Of a DNA stretch of 64,000 nucleotides, positions 1,655-38,567 are shown piece after piece; position 1 is the stretch's first letter, and every line of letters begins with the position of its first letter. The stretch covers positions 3,286,001 through 3,350,000 of the forward strand of contig NZ_CP027557.1 in the NCBI RefSeq assembly GCF_014854695.1, read 5' to 3'. This DNA is from Rhodococcus rhodochrous (GTDB taxonomy: Bacteria; Actinomycetota; Actinomycetes; Mycobacteriales; Mycobacteriaceae). A program made the position numbers and the translations under genes. The notes under the pieces are model-generated. The model did no database searches. It had not been told where the DNA came from and saw only the letters and a list, made by a program, of their open reading frames with translations.

Positions 1655-4600
1655 CTAGGTGGCCAGGCAGCCCGGTCCGAGCAGGGCCTTGAGGTCGCCC
1701 ATCAGCGCCGACGACGGTTCGACCCGCAGGCTGTCGTCGAGCTTGAGGACGGTGACCTTGCTGCCGGTGATGAGCCGCACGTGCACGTCGGACGAGCCGG
1801 GATGGCGCGTGAGCACGTTCTTGAGGGCACCGACCTTGTCGGGGGTGCACAACCGGGTGGGCATCGACACCGACACCGGCTTCGCGACCCCGATCTGCGA
1901 GAGGTCGGGGACGACGAGATCGTTGGCGATCAGGGAGATCCGGTCGTCGCGGATCGACACCCGGGCCTTGACCAGCACCACCGAGTCCTCCACGACGTCC
2001 ATGCCGTAGACGGCGTAGGACTGCGGGAAGAACAACACCTCGATGCCACCGGTGAGGTCCTCGAGCTGCGCGGACGCCCAGGCGAGACCGTTCTTGTTGA
2101 TGCGCCGGTTCACCGAGGCGAGGATGCCACCGACGGTGACCTGGCTGCCGTCCTTGAGCGCGCCTTCGAGGATCGCGGGGATCTGGGTGTCGGCCTGCGA
2201 CGCGAGGACGTGCTCGACGCCGTTGAGCGGGTGCCCGGAGACGTAGAGGCCGAGCATCTCCCGTTCGAGGGCGAGGCGGTGCTTGGTGTCCCATTCCTCC
2301 TCGGGGATGCGGACGTTGAACACCGCGGCGACGGACTCGTCGGCGTCGTCGCCGCCGAACAGGTCGAACTGGCCGATCGCCTCGGCCTTCTTCGTGCTCA
2401 TCACCGCGTCGATCGCGTCGGCGTGGACGAGCATCAATCCCTTGCGCGGGTGTCCGAGCGAGTCGAATGCGCCTGCCTTGATGAGGGATTCGGTGACCTT
2501 CTTCGAACACGCGACGGTGTCGATCTTGTTGAGATAGTCGGAGAAGTCGGTGTAGCGGCCCTTCTCCTCCCGCCCCTTGATGATCGAGGCGACGACGTTC
2601 GTGCCGACGTTGCGGACGGCGCCGAGGCCGAACCGGATGTCCTCGCCCACCGACATGAAGTTGGTGTGCGACTCGTTGACGTCCGGCGGCAGCACGGTGA
2701 TGCCCATCTTGCGGCAGTCGGACAGGTAGACCGCGGCCTTGTCCTTGTCGTCACCCACGGAGGTGAGCAGACCGGCCATGTACTCGGCCGGGTAGTTCGC
2801 CTTGAGATAGGCGGTCCAGAACGAGACGAGACCGTAACCGGCGGCGTGCGACTTGTTGAACGCGTAGCCGGCGAAGGGCAGAACGGTGTCCCACAGCGCG
2901 GTGATCGCCGCCTGCGAGAAGCCGTTGTCCTTCATGCCCTGCGCGAAGCCGTCGTAGGCCTCGTCGAGGATCTCCTTCTTCTTCTTACCCATCGCGCGAC
3001 GCAGCAGGTCTGCCTGTCCGAGCGAGTAACCGGCCACCTTCTGAGCGATCTGCATGATCTGCTCCTGGTAGACGATCAGGCCGTAGGTGTCGGCGAGGAT
3101 CTCCTTCAGCGGCTCCTCGAGCTCGGGATGGATCGGCTTGACCTCTTGCCGCCCGTTCTTGCGGTCGGCGTAGTCGTTGTGCGCGTTCATGCCCATCGGA
3201 CCGGGGCGGTACAGCGCGAGCACGGCGACGATGTCCTCGAAGCCGGTGGGCTGCATGCGGCGCAGCAGGTCGCGCATGGCGCTGCCGTCGAGCTGGAACA
3301 CGCCGAGCGTGTCGCCGCGCGCGAGCAGTTCGTAGGTCGCCGGATCCTCCAGCGGGAGGGTGTCGAGGTCGAGATCGATCCCGCGGTTGACCTTGATGTT
3401 CTCGATCGCGTCGCCGATGACGGTGAGGTTGCGCAGACCGAGGAAGTCCATCTTCAGCAGGCCGATGGCCTCGCAGGACGGATAGTCCCAGCCGGTGATG
3501 ATCGCGCCGTCCTGCGCGCGCTTCCACAGCGGGATCGCGTCCATGAGCGGCTCGGACGACATGATCACCGCGCAGGCGTGGACGCCGGCGTTGCGGATCA
3601 GGCCCTCGAGACCGAGCGCGGTGTCGTAGATCTTCTTGATGTCCGGGTTGGACTCGATCAGCTGGCGGACCTCGGCGGCTTCCTTGTACCGCTCGTGGCT
3701 CGGGTCGGTGATACCCGAGACCGGGATGTCCTTCGCCATGATCGGCGGAGGCAGGGCCTTGGTGATCTGGTCGGCGATCGCGAATCCGGGCTGGCCGAAC
3801 TGCACTCGCGCGGAGTCCTTGATCGCGGCCTTCGTCTTGATGGTGCCGAACGTGATGACCTGGGCGACCTTGTCGTTGCCCCACCGCTCGGTGGCGTAGC
3901 GCACCATCTCACCGCGGCGGCGATCGTCGAAGTCGATATCGATATCGGGCATCGACACGCGCTCGGGGTTGAGGAACCGCTCGAACAGCAGACCGTGCGG
4001 GATCGGGTCGATGTTGGTGATGCCCATCGCGTAGGCGACGAGCGAACCGGCGGCCGAACCACGGCCGGGGCCGACGCGGATGCCGACCTCGCGGGCGTGG
4101 TTGATGAGGTCGCCGACGACGAGGAAGTAAGCGGGGAAGCCCATCTGGTTGATGACGCTGATCTCGTACTCGGCGCGCTCGACGTACTCGCGGGGCGGGC
4201 CGGCGGGGAAGCGACGGTCGAGACCGCGCATGACCTCCTTGTGCAACCAGCTCGCCTGCGTCTCCCCTTCCGGCACCGGGAAGATCGGCATCCGGTCGCG
4301 GTGGGTCCACACGTCCTCGTAGGACTGCACCCGCTCGGCGATGAGCAGCGTGTTGTCGCACGCGCCCGGCACCTCGCGGTCCCACTGCTCGCGCATCTCC
4401 TGCGCCGACTTGAGGTAGTAGCCGTCGCCGTCGAACTTGAACCGGGTGGGATCGGAGAGAGTCTTACCGGTCTGGATGCACAGCAGCGCCTCGTGGTTCG
4501 CGGCCGCATCCTTGGTGACGTAGTGGCAGTCGTTGGTCACGAGCGGCGGGATGTCGAGCTTGCGGCCGATCTCGATCAGGCCCTCGCGCACCCGGCGCTC

Positions 4601-5191
4601 GATGGACAGGCCGTGGTCCATCAGCTCGAGGAAGAAGTTGTCCTTACCCCAGATCTCCTGCCACTTCGCGGCCGCCTCGAGGGCTTCACGCTCGTGGCCG
4701 AGGCGCAGGCGCGTCTGGATCTCACCCGACGGGCAGCCGGTCGTGGCGATGATGCCCTCGTGATGGTGGGCGATGAGCTCTTCGTCCATACGAGCCCACT
4801 TGCCGAGCTGGCCCTCGATCGATGCGAGGGAGGACAGCTTGAACAGGTTCCGCAGGCCCGTGGAGTTCTCGGCGACCATCGTCATGTGGGTGTAGGCACC
4901 CGAGCCGGAGACGTCGTCGGACTTCTGGCCGGGATCGCCCCACTGCACACGCTTGGTGGAGAAGCGCGACTCCGGCGCGACGTACGCCTCGATACCGATG
5001 ATCGGCTTGATGCCGAACTTCTTGGCGACGTTGTAGAACTCGCTGGCGCCGTACATGTTTCCGTGGTCGGTCATGCCCACGGCCGGCATCCCCAGCCGTT
5101 CGGCCTCCTTGAACAACGGTCCGACCTTCGCGGCACCGTCGAGCATCGAGTACTCGGTGTGGGTGTGCAGATGAACGAACGAGTCAGCCAC
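1655..5191 (-). CDS. dnaE: DNA polymerase III alpha subunit (replicative, DnaE1 type)
   Basis: 1178 residues, close to mycobacterial DnaE1 (about 1184). It is the chain-elongating subunit of the replicative polymerase. The protein opens with a PHP domain ([16 protein letters not shown]), the proofreading or metal-binding module of actinobacterial DnaE. The palm follows with the catalytic acidic cluster PDIDIDFDD near residue 415, then fingers, helix-hairpin-helix and a C-terminal OB fold. The GTG at 5191 is chosen because homologs begin with (M/V)[14 protein letters not shown] and GAGAGG precedes it. Longer in-frame extension upstream has no family match. A TAGACT -10 box overlaps the rarD stop codon, so it probably has its own promoter. 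Confidence 0.97.
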
Positions 5192-35645: not shown

Positions 35646-36077
35646 TTACAAGATGTCGTGTAGTGCTTCGTCTCTCGCTTCCGAGAAGTCTTCTTCGTGC
35701 TCGGCGAGGTAGGTCTCCCATGCCGTCGCGTCCCAGATCTCGAGGTACCTGACCGAACCGATCACCACGCAGTCCTTGGTGAGACCGGCGTACTTGCGGT
35801 GGGCCGACGACAGCGTGATCCGGCCTTGTGAGTCGGGTCGCTGCTCCTCCGTCCCCGATGCGAGACTCCGCAGGAACGCACGTGCCTGAGGGTTGCTCCG
35901 TGAGGCACTCGCGGCGCGTTCGGCCAGAGCGGCGAACTCGTCGCGAGGGAACACGGTGAGGCTGTGATCCTGCCCCTTCGTGATCATCAACCCTCCCGCC
36001 AGCTCGTCTCGGTACTTCGCCGGCAGCGTGAGCCGGCCCTTGTCGTCCAACTTCGGGGTGTAGGTACCGAGGAACAC
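35646..36077 (-). CDS. mraZ: Transcriptional regulator MraZ
   Basis: 143 residues, the standard MraZ length. A ring-forming AbrB-fold DNA-binding protein that controls the division and cell wall operon, including its own promoter. Two tandem MraZ repeats are visible: [20 protein letters not shown] (residues 2-21) and [20 protein letters not shown] (about residues 80-100). The GTG at 36077 follows GGGGAGG and gives the conserved start. Three MraZ-type operator repeats lie 60 bp upstream. Confidence 0.97.
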
Positions 36078-36137
36078 TCGGCGCCTCCCCGCTGCCGGAC
36101 GGATGCTTCGCGCGACAGGACACCTTGTCCCGCCGCG

Positions 36138-36163
36138 CCCCACATTACCCCACTTTGCCCCAC
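36138..36163 (-). promoter_or_regulatory. MraZ operator, three GTGGGG repeats
   Basis: On the minus strand GTGGGG occurs at 36158-36163, 36148-36153 and 36138-36143, exactly 10 bp apart. This is the spacing known for MraZ boxes (TGGGN repeats one helical turn apart). The repeats overlap a plausible promoter: TTTCCG, 16 bp, TAATGT (36142-36147). MraZ binding would therefore block RNA polymerase. Confidence 0.85.
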
Positions 36164-36517: not shown

Positions 36518-36937
36518 TCAATCCTGCTCGAAACGCCTCCGGAACCGCTCTTCCATGCGGTTGGTGAAGCCACCACCCGAGGACTTCTTGCCGCCGCGGG
36601 AACTTCGACCGGTCTTTCCGGAACCGGAACTACCGCCCGTCGCTCCGGGAGTCGACGGCCGACGACCGCCGAGGAGCAACAGGACTCCGGCGGCGAACAT
36701 CACGAGGAACCCGAGCAGACTGATGATCGGGAAGCCGCCCGGCTTGAGCGGCAGGGCAACGCCGGCGATCAACAGCGTCAGGCCCAACACGAACAAGGCG
36801 CCGGCCTGTAGCCGCCGCCGGTTCGACGCCATCCCCAACCGGCTGCCACGCACGGTCGAGGCGAACTTGGGATCCTCAGCATAGAGCGCGCTCTCGATCT
36901 GATCGAGCATGCGCTGCTCGTGCTCGGAGAGTGGCAC
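36518..36937 (-). CDS. DUF3040 domain membrane protein
   Basis: 139 residues, homologous to mycobacterial Rv2169c, which also lies beside mraZ. The N-terminal MPLSEHEQRMLDQIESALYA is the DUF3040 signature. Two membrane segments follow (LFVLGLTLLIAGVALPL and ISLLGFLVMFAAGVLLLLGG), then a Gly/Ser/Arg-rich tail. The function is unknown. The GTG at 36937 has GGGGGAGG upstream. Confidence 0.9.
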   Translation of the reverse strand: MPLSEHEQRMLDQIESALYAEDPKFASTVRGSRLGMASNRRRLQAGALFVLGLTLLIAGVALPLKPGGFPIISLLGFLVMFAAGVLLLLGGRRPSTPGATGGSSGSGKTGRSSRGGKKSSGGGFTNRMEERFRRRFEQD

Positions 36938-37110: not shown

Positions 37111-37596
37111 TCACCCACCCACACCGACCTCCGGTTCTGCTTCGGCGTCGAGATAACCCTCCACGTCGTGCAGGAAGTGGCCCACCTCGTCGTAGAACGC
37201 ACCGGATTCGTCGGCACCCACCGCCTGCGCGACCCCCGCCTCGACCGCGGTGCGAGTGGCGGAGCGATCGGCGAAGTAGTCGGCCCACACGGCGAAGGAG
37301 TCGTCGGCACGCGCCATGAGTGCCCATGCGTTGCGCGTGGCGGGGCGGCGGGGCCGGATCCCGGAACGCAGCTCCGCGGCGGCGACCACCGCACCGGCAC
37401 CGCGCAGCGCCGCCAGATAGGCGAGACGGAACCGCTCGCCCGGATCGCCGGCACCGGCGGCAGCCGAGAGCAGATCGTCGGCCTTGCGCAGCAACGTCGC
37501 CGCGCGCGCCGAGGTGGCATGGTCGATGCATACGGACGGCCCGAGCGTGGGAGACGTTCGGCGCGGGCCTCGACTCGCGACCTGACCGTTGGCCAT
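37111..37596 (-). CDS. SAV_6107-family HEPN domain protein
   Basis: 161 residues. After a basic 25-residue N-terminus, the body is all-helical (SARAATLLRKADDLLSAAAG, FRLAYLAALRGAGAVVAAAE, FYDEVGHFLHDVEGYLDAEA), matching the actinobacterial SAV_6107 HEPN family. Many HEPN proteins are RNases or toxin partners, but I do not see the R-x(4-6)-H active motif, so a non-catalytic role is likely. The ATG at 37596 follows GGAGGTGCGTGAAC; an in-frame GTG two codons earlier is possible. A perfect LexA box and a long hairpin lie upstream. Confidence 0.8.
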   Translation of the reverse strand: MANGQVASRGPRRTSPTLGPSVCIDHATSARAATLLRKADDLLSAAAGAGDPGERFRLAYLAALRGAGAVVAAAELRSGIRPRRPATRNAWALMARADDSFAVWADYFADRSATRTAVEAGVAQAVGADESGAFYDEVGHFLHDVEGYLDAEAEPEVGVGG

Positions 37597-37734
37597 GTTC
37601 ACGCACCTCCTCGGCGTGGTCTCACCACTCGTTACAACGAGCGGTATCCGGTGGCATTCCCGCCGAAACGCCGAGGAACGGAGATCACTGTCCTCGAGTG
37701 AGGCCCGACACGGACGCCGAGCGGGAGACCCCAG

Positions 37735-37779
37735 GGTGATCCGGGGATGTTCGCTTCCCTCGAACATCCCCGGATCACC
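37735..37779. repeat. 19-bp perfect inverted repeat in the HEPN/GNAT intergenic region
   Basis: Arms at 37735-37753 and 37761-37779 (7-nt loop) are exact complements over 19 bp. It lies between the LexA box and the HEPN gene, so it would form a stable hairpin at the 5' end of that message, or act as a terminator for rightward transcription. Confidence 0.8.
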
Positions 37780-37783
37780 GGTA

Positions 37784-37799
37784 TCGAACATGCGTTCGA
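37784..37799. promoter_or_regulatory. LexA (SOS) box
   Basis: TCGAACATGCGTTCGA has the perfect 6-bp half-sites of the actinobacterial SOS box TCGAAC-N4-GTTCGA. On the minus strand it lies within a possible promoter (TTGAAT, 17 bp, GATACC) pointing at the HEPN gene. It is 120 bp before the divergent GNAT gene. Confidence 0.75.
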
Positions 37800-37919
37800 C
37801 GTATTCAATATAGCTGGACCCACCGACAACCCGTCAAGAGAAAGTGGCCACGTCATCCCGAACGATCAGCGAGACCCGAGCACCTCCGACGCACCGCGAG
37901 CCACCCGAACGAGTCACGC

Positions 37920-38567
37920 ATGACCACCGATCCCTGCCAGGACGCCCCGATCCTCACCGAGCTCTCCCCCGCGGACTTCCGTGCGCGCCTGCCCGCGCTG
38001 CTGACCGTCTACGTCGCGGCGATGCGATATCCCCGAGGCACGGAGTACCACCGCGCGCCGATGTGGTCCGAGCATTCGGCCCGCGCGGGTTGGCAGGCGT
38101 TCGCCGCGAGCCTCCCCGAGGATCCGGACACCGTCGTCGGGATCGCGTACGGCTACCGGGGCGACACCCGCCAGTGGTGGAACCAGCAGGTGCGCGCCGG
38201 CATGCGTCATTCGGGACGGTCCCCCGAGGAGATCGATCGCGTCCTCTCCGACTACTTCGAGCTCACCGAACTGCACGTCCGACCCGACATGCAGGGACGC
38301 CGCATCGGTGAACTGCTCCTGTCGGCGCTGCTGCGGGAACGCAGCGAAGCGGCCGTACTGCTGTCGACACCCGAGGTGCCGGGCGAGGACAACCGGGCGT
38401 GGCGGCTGTACCGTCGGTTCGGATTCCAGGACGTCGTCCGCCGGTTCGTCTTCACCGGCGACGCCCGCCCGTTCGCGGTCCTCGGCAGGAGCCTGCCCCT
38501 CGAGCCGGACCTCGTTCCGCACCACCATCACACGACCGACGATCCGGACGGAAGCGGTACCCCATGA
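37920..38567 (+). CDS. GNAT family N-acetyltransferase (Rv2170-like)
   Basis: 215 residues. The acetyl-CoA site is visible in FELTELHVRPDMQGRRIGEL, with the GNAT motif Q-x-x-x-I-G, and the C-terminal motif B region RAWRLYRRFGFQDVVRRF. The mycobacterial homolog Rv2170 has been described as a lysine acetyltransferase; the substrate here is unproven. The N-terminal 100 residues are family-specific. The stop codon overlaps the crtO start as ATGA, so it is translationally coupled to carotenoid genes. No strong ribosome site is visible before the ATG. Confidence 0.88.
   Translation: MTTDPCQDAPILTELSPADFRARLPALLTVYVAAMRYPRGTEYHRAPMWSEHSARAGWQAFAASLPEDPDTVVGIAYGYRGDTRQWWNQQVRAGMRHSGRSPEEIDRVLSDYFELTELHVRPDMQGRRIGELLLSALLRERSEAAVLLSTPEVPGEDNRAWRLYRRFGFQDVVRRFVFTGDARPFAVLGRSLPLEPDLVPHHHHTTDDPDGSGTP

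Follow-up and report, generated by a model that had tools for sequence, protein, structure and literature searches.

What is a perfect LexA (SOS) box doing in front of a gene for a SAV_6107-type HEPN protein, and what would the very stable hairpin between the two contribute? The question arises from the window, i.e., the whole 64,000-nucleotide stretch of Rhodococcus rhodochrous DNA that was analysed. Our preferred answer, to which we give a probability of roughly 0.78, is that the HEPN gene is a damage-response gene with a two-layer PafBC/LexA switch and a leader hairpin, and that its product is an accessory factor acting beside specialised polymerases. The features concerned, in window coordinates, are:

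37111..37596, minus strand: SAV_6107-type HEPN gene, 161 aa (PF18726), from profile match and orthologs
37606..37610, minus strand: GGAGG, likely ribosome-binding site of the HEPN gene, from the sequence
37735..37779, minus strand: 5'-leader RNA hairpin of 19 bp with loop AGGGAAG at 37754-37760, from fold, covariation and strand asymmetry
37784..37799, no strand assigned: LexA (SOS) box TCGAAC-N4-GTTCGA, an exact match conserved upstream of HEPN orthologs
37807..37812, minus strand: -10 element TATATT, part of the conserved promoter
37821..37829, minus strand: RecA-NDp/PafBC element TTGTCGGTG, exact motif, 8 nt before the -10 element
37832..37837, minus strand: -35-like TTGACG, 19 nt from the -10 element, occurring in part of the family; putative role
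37920..38567, plus strand: divergent GNAT acetyltransferase gene, probably outside the unit
36518..36937, minus strand: DUF3040 gene, downstream syntenic neighbour, from profile match and synteny
35646..36143, minus strand: mraZ ORF, start of the division/cell-wall cluster and syntenic neighbour, from profile match and synteny

LexA box and PafBC-type promoter

The protein encoded from the start codon at 37596 matches HEPN_SAV_6107 (PF18726) with an E-value of 5.3e-25 and 88.3 bits, against a cut-off of 27.2. On the minus strand the LexA box reads TCGAACGCATGTTCGA (37799-37784); it sits just downstream of the -10 element, overlapping the presumed transcription start. The box is exact, as the original prediction had it, and conforms to the actinobacterial LexA consensus, given for S. 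venezuelae as tCGAAC-N4-GNNCGa (PMC9380542). Scanning of the whole 6.09-Mb genome returned it as the sole zero-mismatch copy, which is weak evidence on its own because the reversed control pattern also has one perfect copy in the same genome; about 0.4 copies would be expected by chance under equal base use. When one mismatch is allowed, 95 sites are found genome-wide versus 8 for the control. A chance match of a 12-base palindrome, to which the single control copy and the expectation of 0.4 lend something, is contradicted by the background counts given below and already refuted by the conservation of the box upstream of orthologs, so that we hold its probability to be negligible; it is likewise this conservation that makes the box at 37784-37799 significant.

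Absence of the box upstream of orthologs had been named beforehand as refuting the idea. HEPN orthologs were detected in 133 of 151 family genomes, from which 130 loci were taken; the loci of G087, G101 and G102 were left out, as were the second, weaker HEPN matches that G094, G120 and G132 (genus g19) carry elsewhere in their genomes. Within 500 nt upstream of the HEPN gene, a box with at most one mismatch lies in 110 of these 130 loci, which represent 26 of 30 genera; the other 20 loci have no box of this quality, among them every locus of genera g4, g5, g8 and g15. For 127 of the 130 loci (tblastn E <=1e-3), the best site within 450 nt upstream was scored on one strand, which suffices for a palindrome: it was a perfect box in 84 and a one-mismatch box in 25, versus 0 perfect and 8 one-mismatch boxes across the other 652,799 bp that these loci comprise. 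This conservation supports, at the level of sequence, the claim that LexA would control the HEPN gene.

Further afield, the box persists with varying quality. Among 58 Corynebacterium-type loci, the best site within 300 nt has one mismatch in 12, two in 27 and three or four in 19; the box is thus more degenerate than in the family loci, with two or fewer mismatches in 39 of the 58 versus 1.6% of 1,092 random windows. In loci from other families, a box with no more than one mismatch occurs within 900 nt in 18 of 20, a set chosen non-randomly (7 picked with a known box, 6 picked for having none of this quality within 600 nt and 7 previously unscanned); all 7 unscanned loci have the box, and 4 of the 6 have one further out. 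Class-wide, 9 of the best-scoring 30 class loci carry it within 600 nt. The 15 loci of genus g50, whose genomes are large and which we infer to be Streptomyces, are those found among these best-scoring 30; in none of the 15 does any site come closer than two mismatches to the box, and LexA control looks to have been lost there. Seven of them (L151, L160, L164, L168, L170, L171 and L172) keep CCGAAC-N4-G(A/T)(T/C)CGA shortly upstream of a PafBC-type motif, which may be a decayed LexA box.

LexA is itself encoded in the R. rhodochrous genome, with two one-mismatch boxes upstream of its gene. One-mismatch boxes also lie upstream of recA and of the second dnaE, each weak taken singly, sites with up to two mismatches not being rare in shuffled loci. 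Besides the best LexA match, a second protein matches a LexA-type DNA-binding domain at 62 bits (G000:C1:3175694-3175876).

The promoter first proposed (TTGAAT, 17 bp, GATACC) can be spelled on the minus strand, but the orthologs conserve TTGTCGGTG-N8-TATATT instead; a simple promoter scan of 37600-37920, limited to spacers of 16-18 nt, returned no sigma-70-type promoter. The elements that recur in the ortholog upstream regions are TGTCGGTG and TATATTGAATA, followed by the LexA box, and TAnnnT is found 4-10 nt ahead of the box in 105 of the 110 box-bearing family loci. A PafBC-dependent, LexA/RecA-independent damage promoter has been described as tTGTCRgtg-8 nt-TannnT (PMC5656591), with further descriptions of the PafBC-dependent damage response in PMC6789036 and PMC8223512. 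The HEPN promoter (37829-37807, minus strand) matches this RecA-NDp/PafBC consensus exactly, giving the one match in the window, with 0 in 100 shuffles. Genome-wide, there are three exact sites: the HEPN promoter, a site upstream of recA, and a third that we discarded because it falls within a listed ORF on contig C2. Of the 110 box-bearing family loci, 73, spread over 19 genera, have a looser TGTCRG-N10-TAnnnT immediately ahead of the box, and a similar PafBC-type motif occurs in 5 of the 20 loci from other families. PafBC is encoded in the genome as two tandem WYL genes, which follow an ORF that, recognised by eye, we take to be PafA.

Genus g50 bears on how the two signals are related: all 15 loci examined carry TGTCAGTG-N8-nAnnnT, against a background of 0 in 87,078 strand-nucleotides, the first -10 base having been relaxed after the sequences were inspected. 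As g50 keeps this motif without a good LexA box, a PafBC-type signal is perhaps the more widespread of the two, with LexA forming a second layer that most sampled lineages have retained. Two side observations concern the same regions. In 9 of the 15 g50 loci (L149, L150, L151, L156, L160, L164, L168, L170 and L172), the PafBC-type motif is preceded by a palindrome resembling TTGAACTGACTGGTCAGTGCAAAA, which has the look of an operator for a different regulator, possibly one acting on the divergent gene. In Corynebacterium-type loci such as L176, L195 and L204, TGTCGAAC..TTTTAGGGT can be seen by eye downstream of the degenerate box, looking like a PafBC-type promoter placed after rather than before the LexA box.

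Taken together, the exact PafBC motif and the LexA box make the HEPN gene look activated by PafBC and repressed by LexA, like recA. Mycobacterial recA has a LexA-controlled promoter P2 and a PafBC-controlled promoter P1 (PMC5656591, PMC8223512), several genes including recA are listed with both signals (PMC8223512), and recA of R. rhodochrous likewise has both motifs upstream. The arrangement differs, however, in that recA uses two promoters, whereas the HEPN gene has one, with the LexA box just past the PafBC-type -10. We therefore picture the switch as follows: (i) PafBC would activate transcription of the HEPN gene through the TTGTCGGTG element and its -10; (ii) LexA, bound to the box just downstream of that -10, would block initiation until RecA-driven cleavage of LexA; and (iii) the resulting mRNA would start with a long leader carrying the conserved AGGGAAG-loop hairpin.

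A precedent for damage control of this family may already exist. In C. glutamicum, cg2381 is a member of the LexA regulon with an M-value of 3.86 after ciprofloxacin, and mraZ is cg2378 (PMC5055667). We take cg2381 to be the ortholog of the HEPN gene, an identity by position, as it lies three locus numbers from mraZ and a PF18726 match in C. glutamicum exceeds the cut-off. The likeness thus comprises position near mraZ, membership in the LexA regulon and induction by DNA damage; on the other side, the available part of PMC5055667 treats cg2381 as a conserved hypothetical and makes no mention there of a PafBC motif, a leader hairpin or a link to polymerases. The suggestion that the family had gone unreported in the SOS regulon is at least incomplete: no title or abstract start among the matches listed by our literature search links SAV_6107 HEPN to the SOS response, but cg2381 is a probable precedent. 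Within the scope of that literature search, dual control across the family, its conserved promoter, the conserved hairpin in the leader and the neighbouring polymerase genes are new.

The leader hairpin and the divergent GNAT gene

The hairpin begins 4 nt from the box, and about 140 nt of further leader separate it from GGAGG. Its arms (37735-37753 and 37761-37779), 19 nt each and 100% complementary, enclose a 7-nt loop; folded alone, it reaches -39 kcal/mol (z -7.55), with 0 of 200 shuffles as stable, which bears out the unusual stability ascribed to it at the outset. Leaders are long in general, with a median of 130.5 nt in 110 loci when ortholog start codons are set by a rule of thumb.

Loop pattern together with arm complementarity, the loop patterns having been defined after inspection of ortholog upstream sequences, occurs on the upstream sense strand in 76 of 130 family loci and on the antisense strand in 0 of 130; elsewhere in the loci it occurs 0.046 times per 520 nt. 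If 13 or more of 14 pairs are required to form, the hairpin is found in 61 of the 130 loci versus 6 instances in 1,322,378 strand-nucleotides. A model built from 54 hairpins, run on 49 of the 54 family loci left after the pattern search, adds 10 loci (E <0.01), bringing the total to 86 loci in 19 genera; in the other 44 of 130, including all those sampled from g3 and g23, it was not found. Within the stem, 16 of 20 pairs show compensatory change, and the covariation score is 0.552 versus 0.203 in shuffles (0 of 500 as high) and 0.07-0.17 when the alignment is slid. Of 62 distinct hairpins, 54 are in that alignment (A2), those with shifted stems (8) having been dropped; because the hairpins had been preselected to have 6 or more of 8 loop-proximal pairs, the percentage paired is inflated. 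Since kinship and pairing-based selection inflate covariation as well, the strand asymmetry and the counts elsewhere are the fairer test.

Searching 31 genomes (R. rhodochrous and 30 relatives) with the model gave a match at E up to 0.1 in 20: R. rhodochrous itself, 15 of 17 from the same genus, one from the same family and 3 of 12 from the same order, the last being weak. In R. rhodochrous the top score, 67.3 bits, belongs to the HEPN leader, with 28.6 bits for the runner-up; the best second place in all 31 genomes reaches 36.5 bits, and in nine relatives the best place immediately precedes the HEPN match. Beyond the family, a loop of strictly 7 nt is found in 0 of 30 class loci and 1 of 20 loci from other families. 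With an 8-nt loop, allowed only after the sequences suggested it, 6 of these 20 show a GGGGAAG version ahead of the HEPN gene, with 0 antisense and 0 in 366,920 strand-nucleotides elsewhere. Rfam 15 gave no match over the gathering score in 37500-37950, with four sub-threshold matches only.

Three ordinary explanations of the hairpin were set aside: (i) an intrinsic terminator or attenuator, as no U run follows the stem and a terminator scan found none; (ii) hidden LexA half-sites, as the GTTCG/CGAAC stem occurs in only part of the family and CCCG/CGGG carries the same loop elsewhere; and (iii) a leader peptide or longer HEPN frame, as stem bases covary and leader lengths differ by non-multiples of three. 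That a non-palindromic loop is kept on one strand argues for recognition as RNA rather than as DNA. Post-transcriptional control is the most likely role that we can propose for the hairpin, possibly through binding of the HEPN protein to its own leader, which is a guess.

Two smaller observations were made in the course of this work. A 10-bp stem, TCCTCGGCGT/ACGCCGAGGA, within 37608-37677 terminates next to the ribosome-binding site, which it could mask; masking is doubtful as a general device, the leaders of L009 and L010 (93 and 74 nt) leaving little room for such a stem. Weak hairpin-model matches (E about 0.05) also occur in L071 (4620-4660) and L073 (4637-4677), both of genus g8 and without a box, well downstream of the HEPN gene and on the opposite strand.

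Box and hairpin might instead serve the divergent GNAT gene, with the box about 120 nt upstream of its start, or the promoter might make a small RNA that is the real product, leaving HEPN as a bystander; the great stability of the hairpin and the length of the leaders speak for such a reading. Both hairpin and PafBC motif, though, point toward the HEPN gene, and the related hairpin in other families again stands upstream of HEPN. Loci that lack the HEPN gene are also informative. Apart from two Corynebacterium contigs that end early, HEPN was not found in 20 of the 80 loci in the named set, 19 of which have enough upstream DNA (18 named mycobacteria and one actinobacterial MAG). GNAT is retained in every one of the 19, whereas boxes with at most one mismatch and exact RecA-NDp motifs are lacking throughout; it is thus with the HEPN gene that the control signals seem to travel. 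The suggestion that GNAT shares the control finds no support here, although the box may have a side effect on it, and we regard a GNAT or small-RNA purpose as quite improbable.

The same loci suggest that mycobacteria are without the gene: HEPN was not found around mraZ in the 18 informative named mycobacterial loci, nor in any of 17 genomes of genus g29, which we infer to be mycobacterial. Work on mycobacteria would for this reason tend to miss it.

Gene neighbourhoods and the role of the HEPN protein

If the gene is switched on by DNA damage, what would its product do? Many HEPN proteins are RNases (PMC3710099), and a ribonuclease toxin or phage-defence effector triggered by DNA damage could be envisaged. 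Yet the catalytic R-x4-6-H is not conserved: H is present in at most 21 of 78 rows of any alignment column, with some R-x4-6-H in 45 of the 78, and SAV_6107 is listed as a family without the motif (PMC3710099). An RNase toxin is unlikely because of this. The HepT/MntA (HEPN-MNT) system shares the HEPN superfamily, but the SAV_6107 protein differs from it in lacking a conserved RNase motif, in having no MNT antitoxin gene in the three neighbouring genes that were scanned (GNAT, DUF3040 and MraZ), and in being encoded by a widespread, syntenic gene; presence in 133 of 151 family genomes is unlike an accessory defence gene. A toxin or defence function thus strikes us as very doubtful, and a phage-defence role, of the kind often seen for HEPN proteins, finds no support, with the neighbourhoods pointing to DNA polymerases. 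A PDB sequence search with the protein returned no significant relative (best E 0.33).

A second alternative follows from synteny. DivS of Corynebacterium is an SOS-induced division brake, and the HEPN protein might similarly slow division, in connection with the adjacent mraZ/dcw cluster. In the 96 family loci with 3-kb flanks, GNAT is divergent in 96, DUF3040 lies downstream in 96 and mraZ is present in 91; all 58 Corynebacterium-type loci with the gene have it upstream of mraZ, and DUF3040 is near the gene in 6 of the 20 loci from other families. Also in keeping with a brake, a LexA site on mraZ itself has been reported from a gut metagenome (PMC3998124), and C. glutamicum mraZ falls with ciprofloxacin (M -1.13; PMC5055667). 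Beyond the family, however, MraZ was not found in any of the 20 other-family windows of up to 10.3 kb, and 7 of these have a DnaE-type polymerase after HEPN instead. We therefore consider a division brake unlikely.

Those 20 loci, drawn from 16 families with flanks of up to 5 kb, carry the evidence for the polymerase link. In the 7 just mentioned, DUF6504 precedes HEPN and the DnaE-type polymerase follows it, with the box upstream. The run is tight in L281, with gaps of 15 and 0 nt; the L281 polymerase is confirmed by Pfam, and the other six are 58-64% identical to it over the main segment. With NCBIfam, the polymerase scores over the DnaE superfamily cut-off and below the cut-offs of both the replicative and the error-prone models, and it is about 26-37% identical to the R. 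rhodochrous DnaE proteins over long segments. DNA polymerase IV (DinB) lies downstream of HEPN in 5 of the 20 loci, directly after DnaE in L278 and L281 and after a methyltransferase in L282, L291 and L295; in the latter three NCBIfam confirms it, and L293 has a weak match to DinB only. A methyltransferase of the same kind is near the HEPN gene in 10 of the 20. Overall, one polymerase or the other is present in 10 loci from 9 families, and in the other 10 neither was found in up to 5 kb of flanking DNA. In the family itself, DinB is beside HEPN in 3 of 130 loci (96 of which have 3-kb flanks), namely L121, L125 and L131, in the order HEPN-methyltransferase-DinB; the polymerase link rests on the other lineages for this reason.

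Damage-controlled modules of this composition are familiar from the ImuA'-ImuB-DnaE2 mutasome cassette, which includes a DnaE-type and a Y-family polymerase. The runs seen in the relatives pair the same two kinds of enzyme, but differ in having DinB as the Y-family member, in the additional HEPN and DUF6504 genes, and in a DnaE-type polymerase with the identity of about 26-37% to the DnaE proteins of R. rhodochrous given above. Because in other families DUF6504, the DnaE-type polymerase, the methyltransferase and DinB run with it behind a LexA box, we propose that the HEPN gene probably belongs to bacterial DNA-damage tolerance, where its protein would be an accessory or nucleic-acid-binding factor working with specialised polymerases. 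This would give a likely function class to HEPN_SAV_6107, a family with members in 197 of the 296 genomes sampled from the class, and would make the HEPN protein a testable candidate partner of such polymerases; it would also provide a single promoter that joins both actinobacterial damage pathways, to which a candidate RNA regulatory element is added.

As for how this distribution came about, it would be simplest to suppose that a damage-tolerance run is ancestral and that the R. rhodochrous family has mostly kept HEPN and its switch from it; alternatively, the polymerase run may have been gained in other lineages. More tentatively, SAV_6107 HEPN could be a core component of actinobacterial damage tolerance, descended from an ancestral DUF6504-HEPN-DnaE-methyltransferase-DinB arrangement, with the AGGGAAG leaders constituting a new RNA family, read by the HEPN protein or by some other factor so that output is adjusted after damage. 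In R. rhodochrous itself, DUF6504 is absent from the genome and no polymerase gene adjoins HEPN, which sits with its switch between GNAT and DUF3040-mraZ. The window does contain a DnaE polymerase gene at 2657-5185, about 32 kb from the HEPN gene, which is probably the replicative DnaE1.
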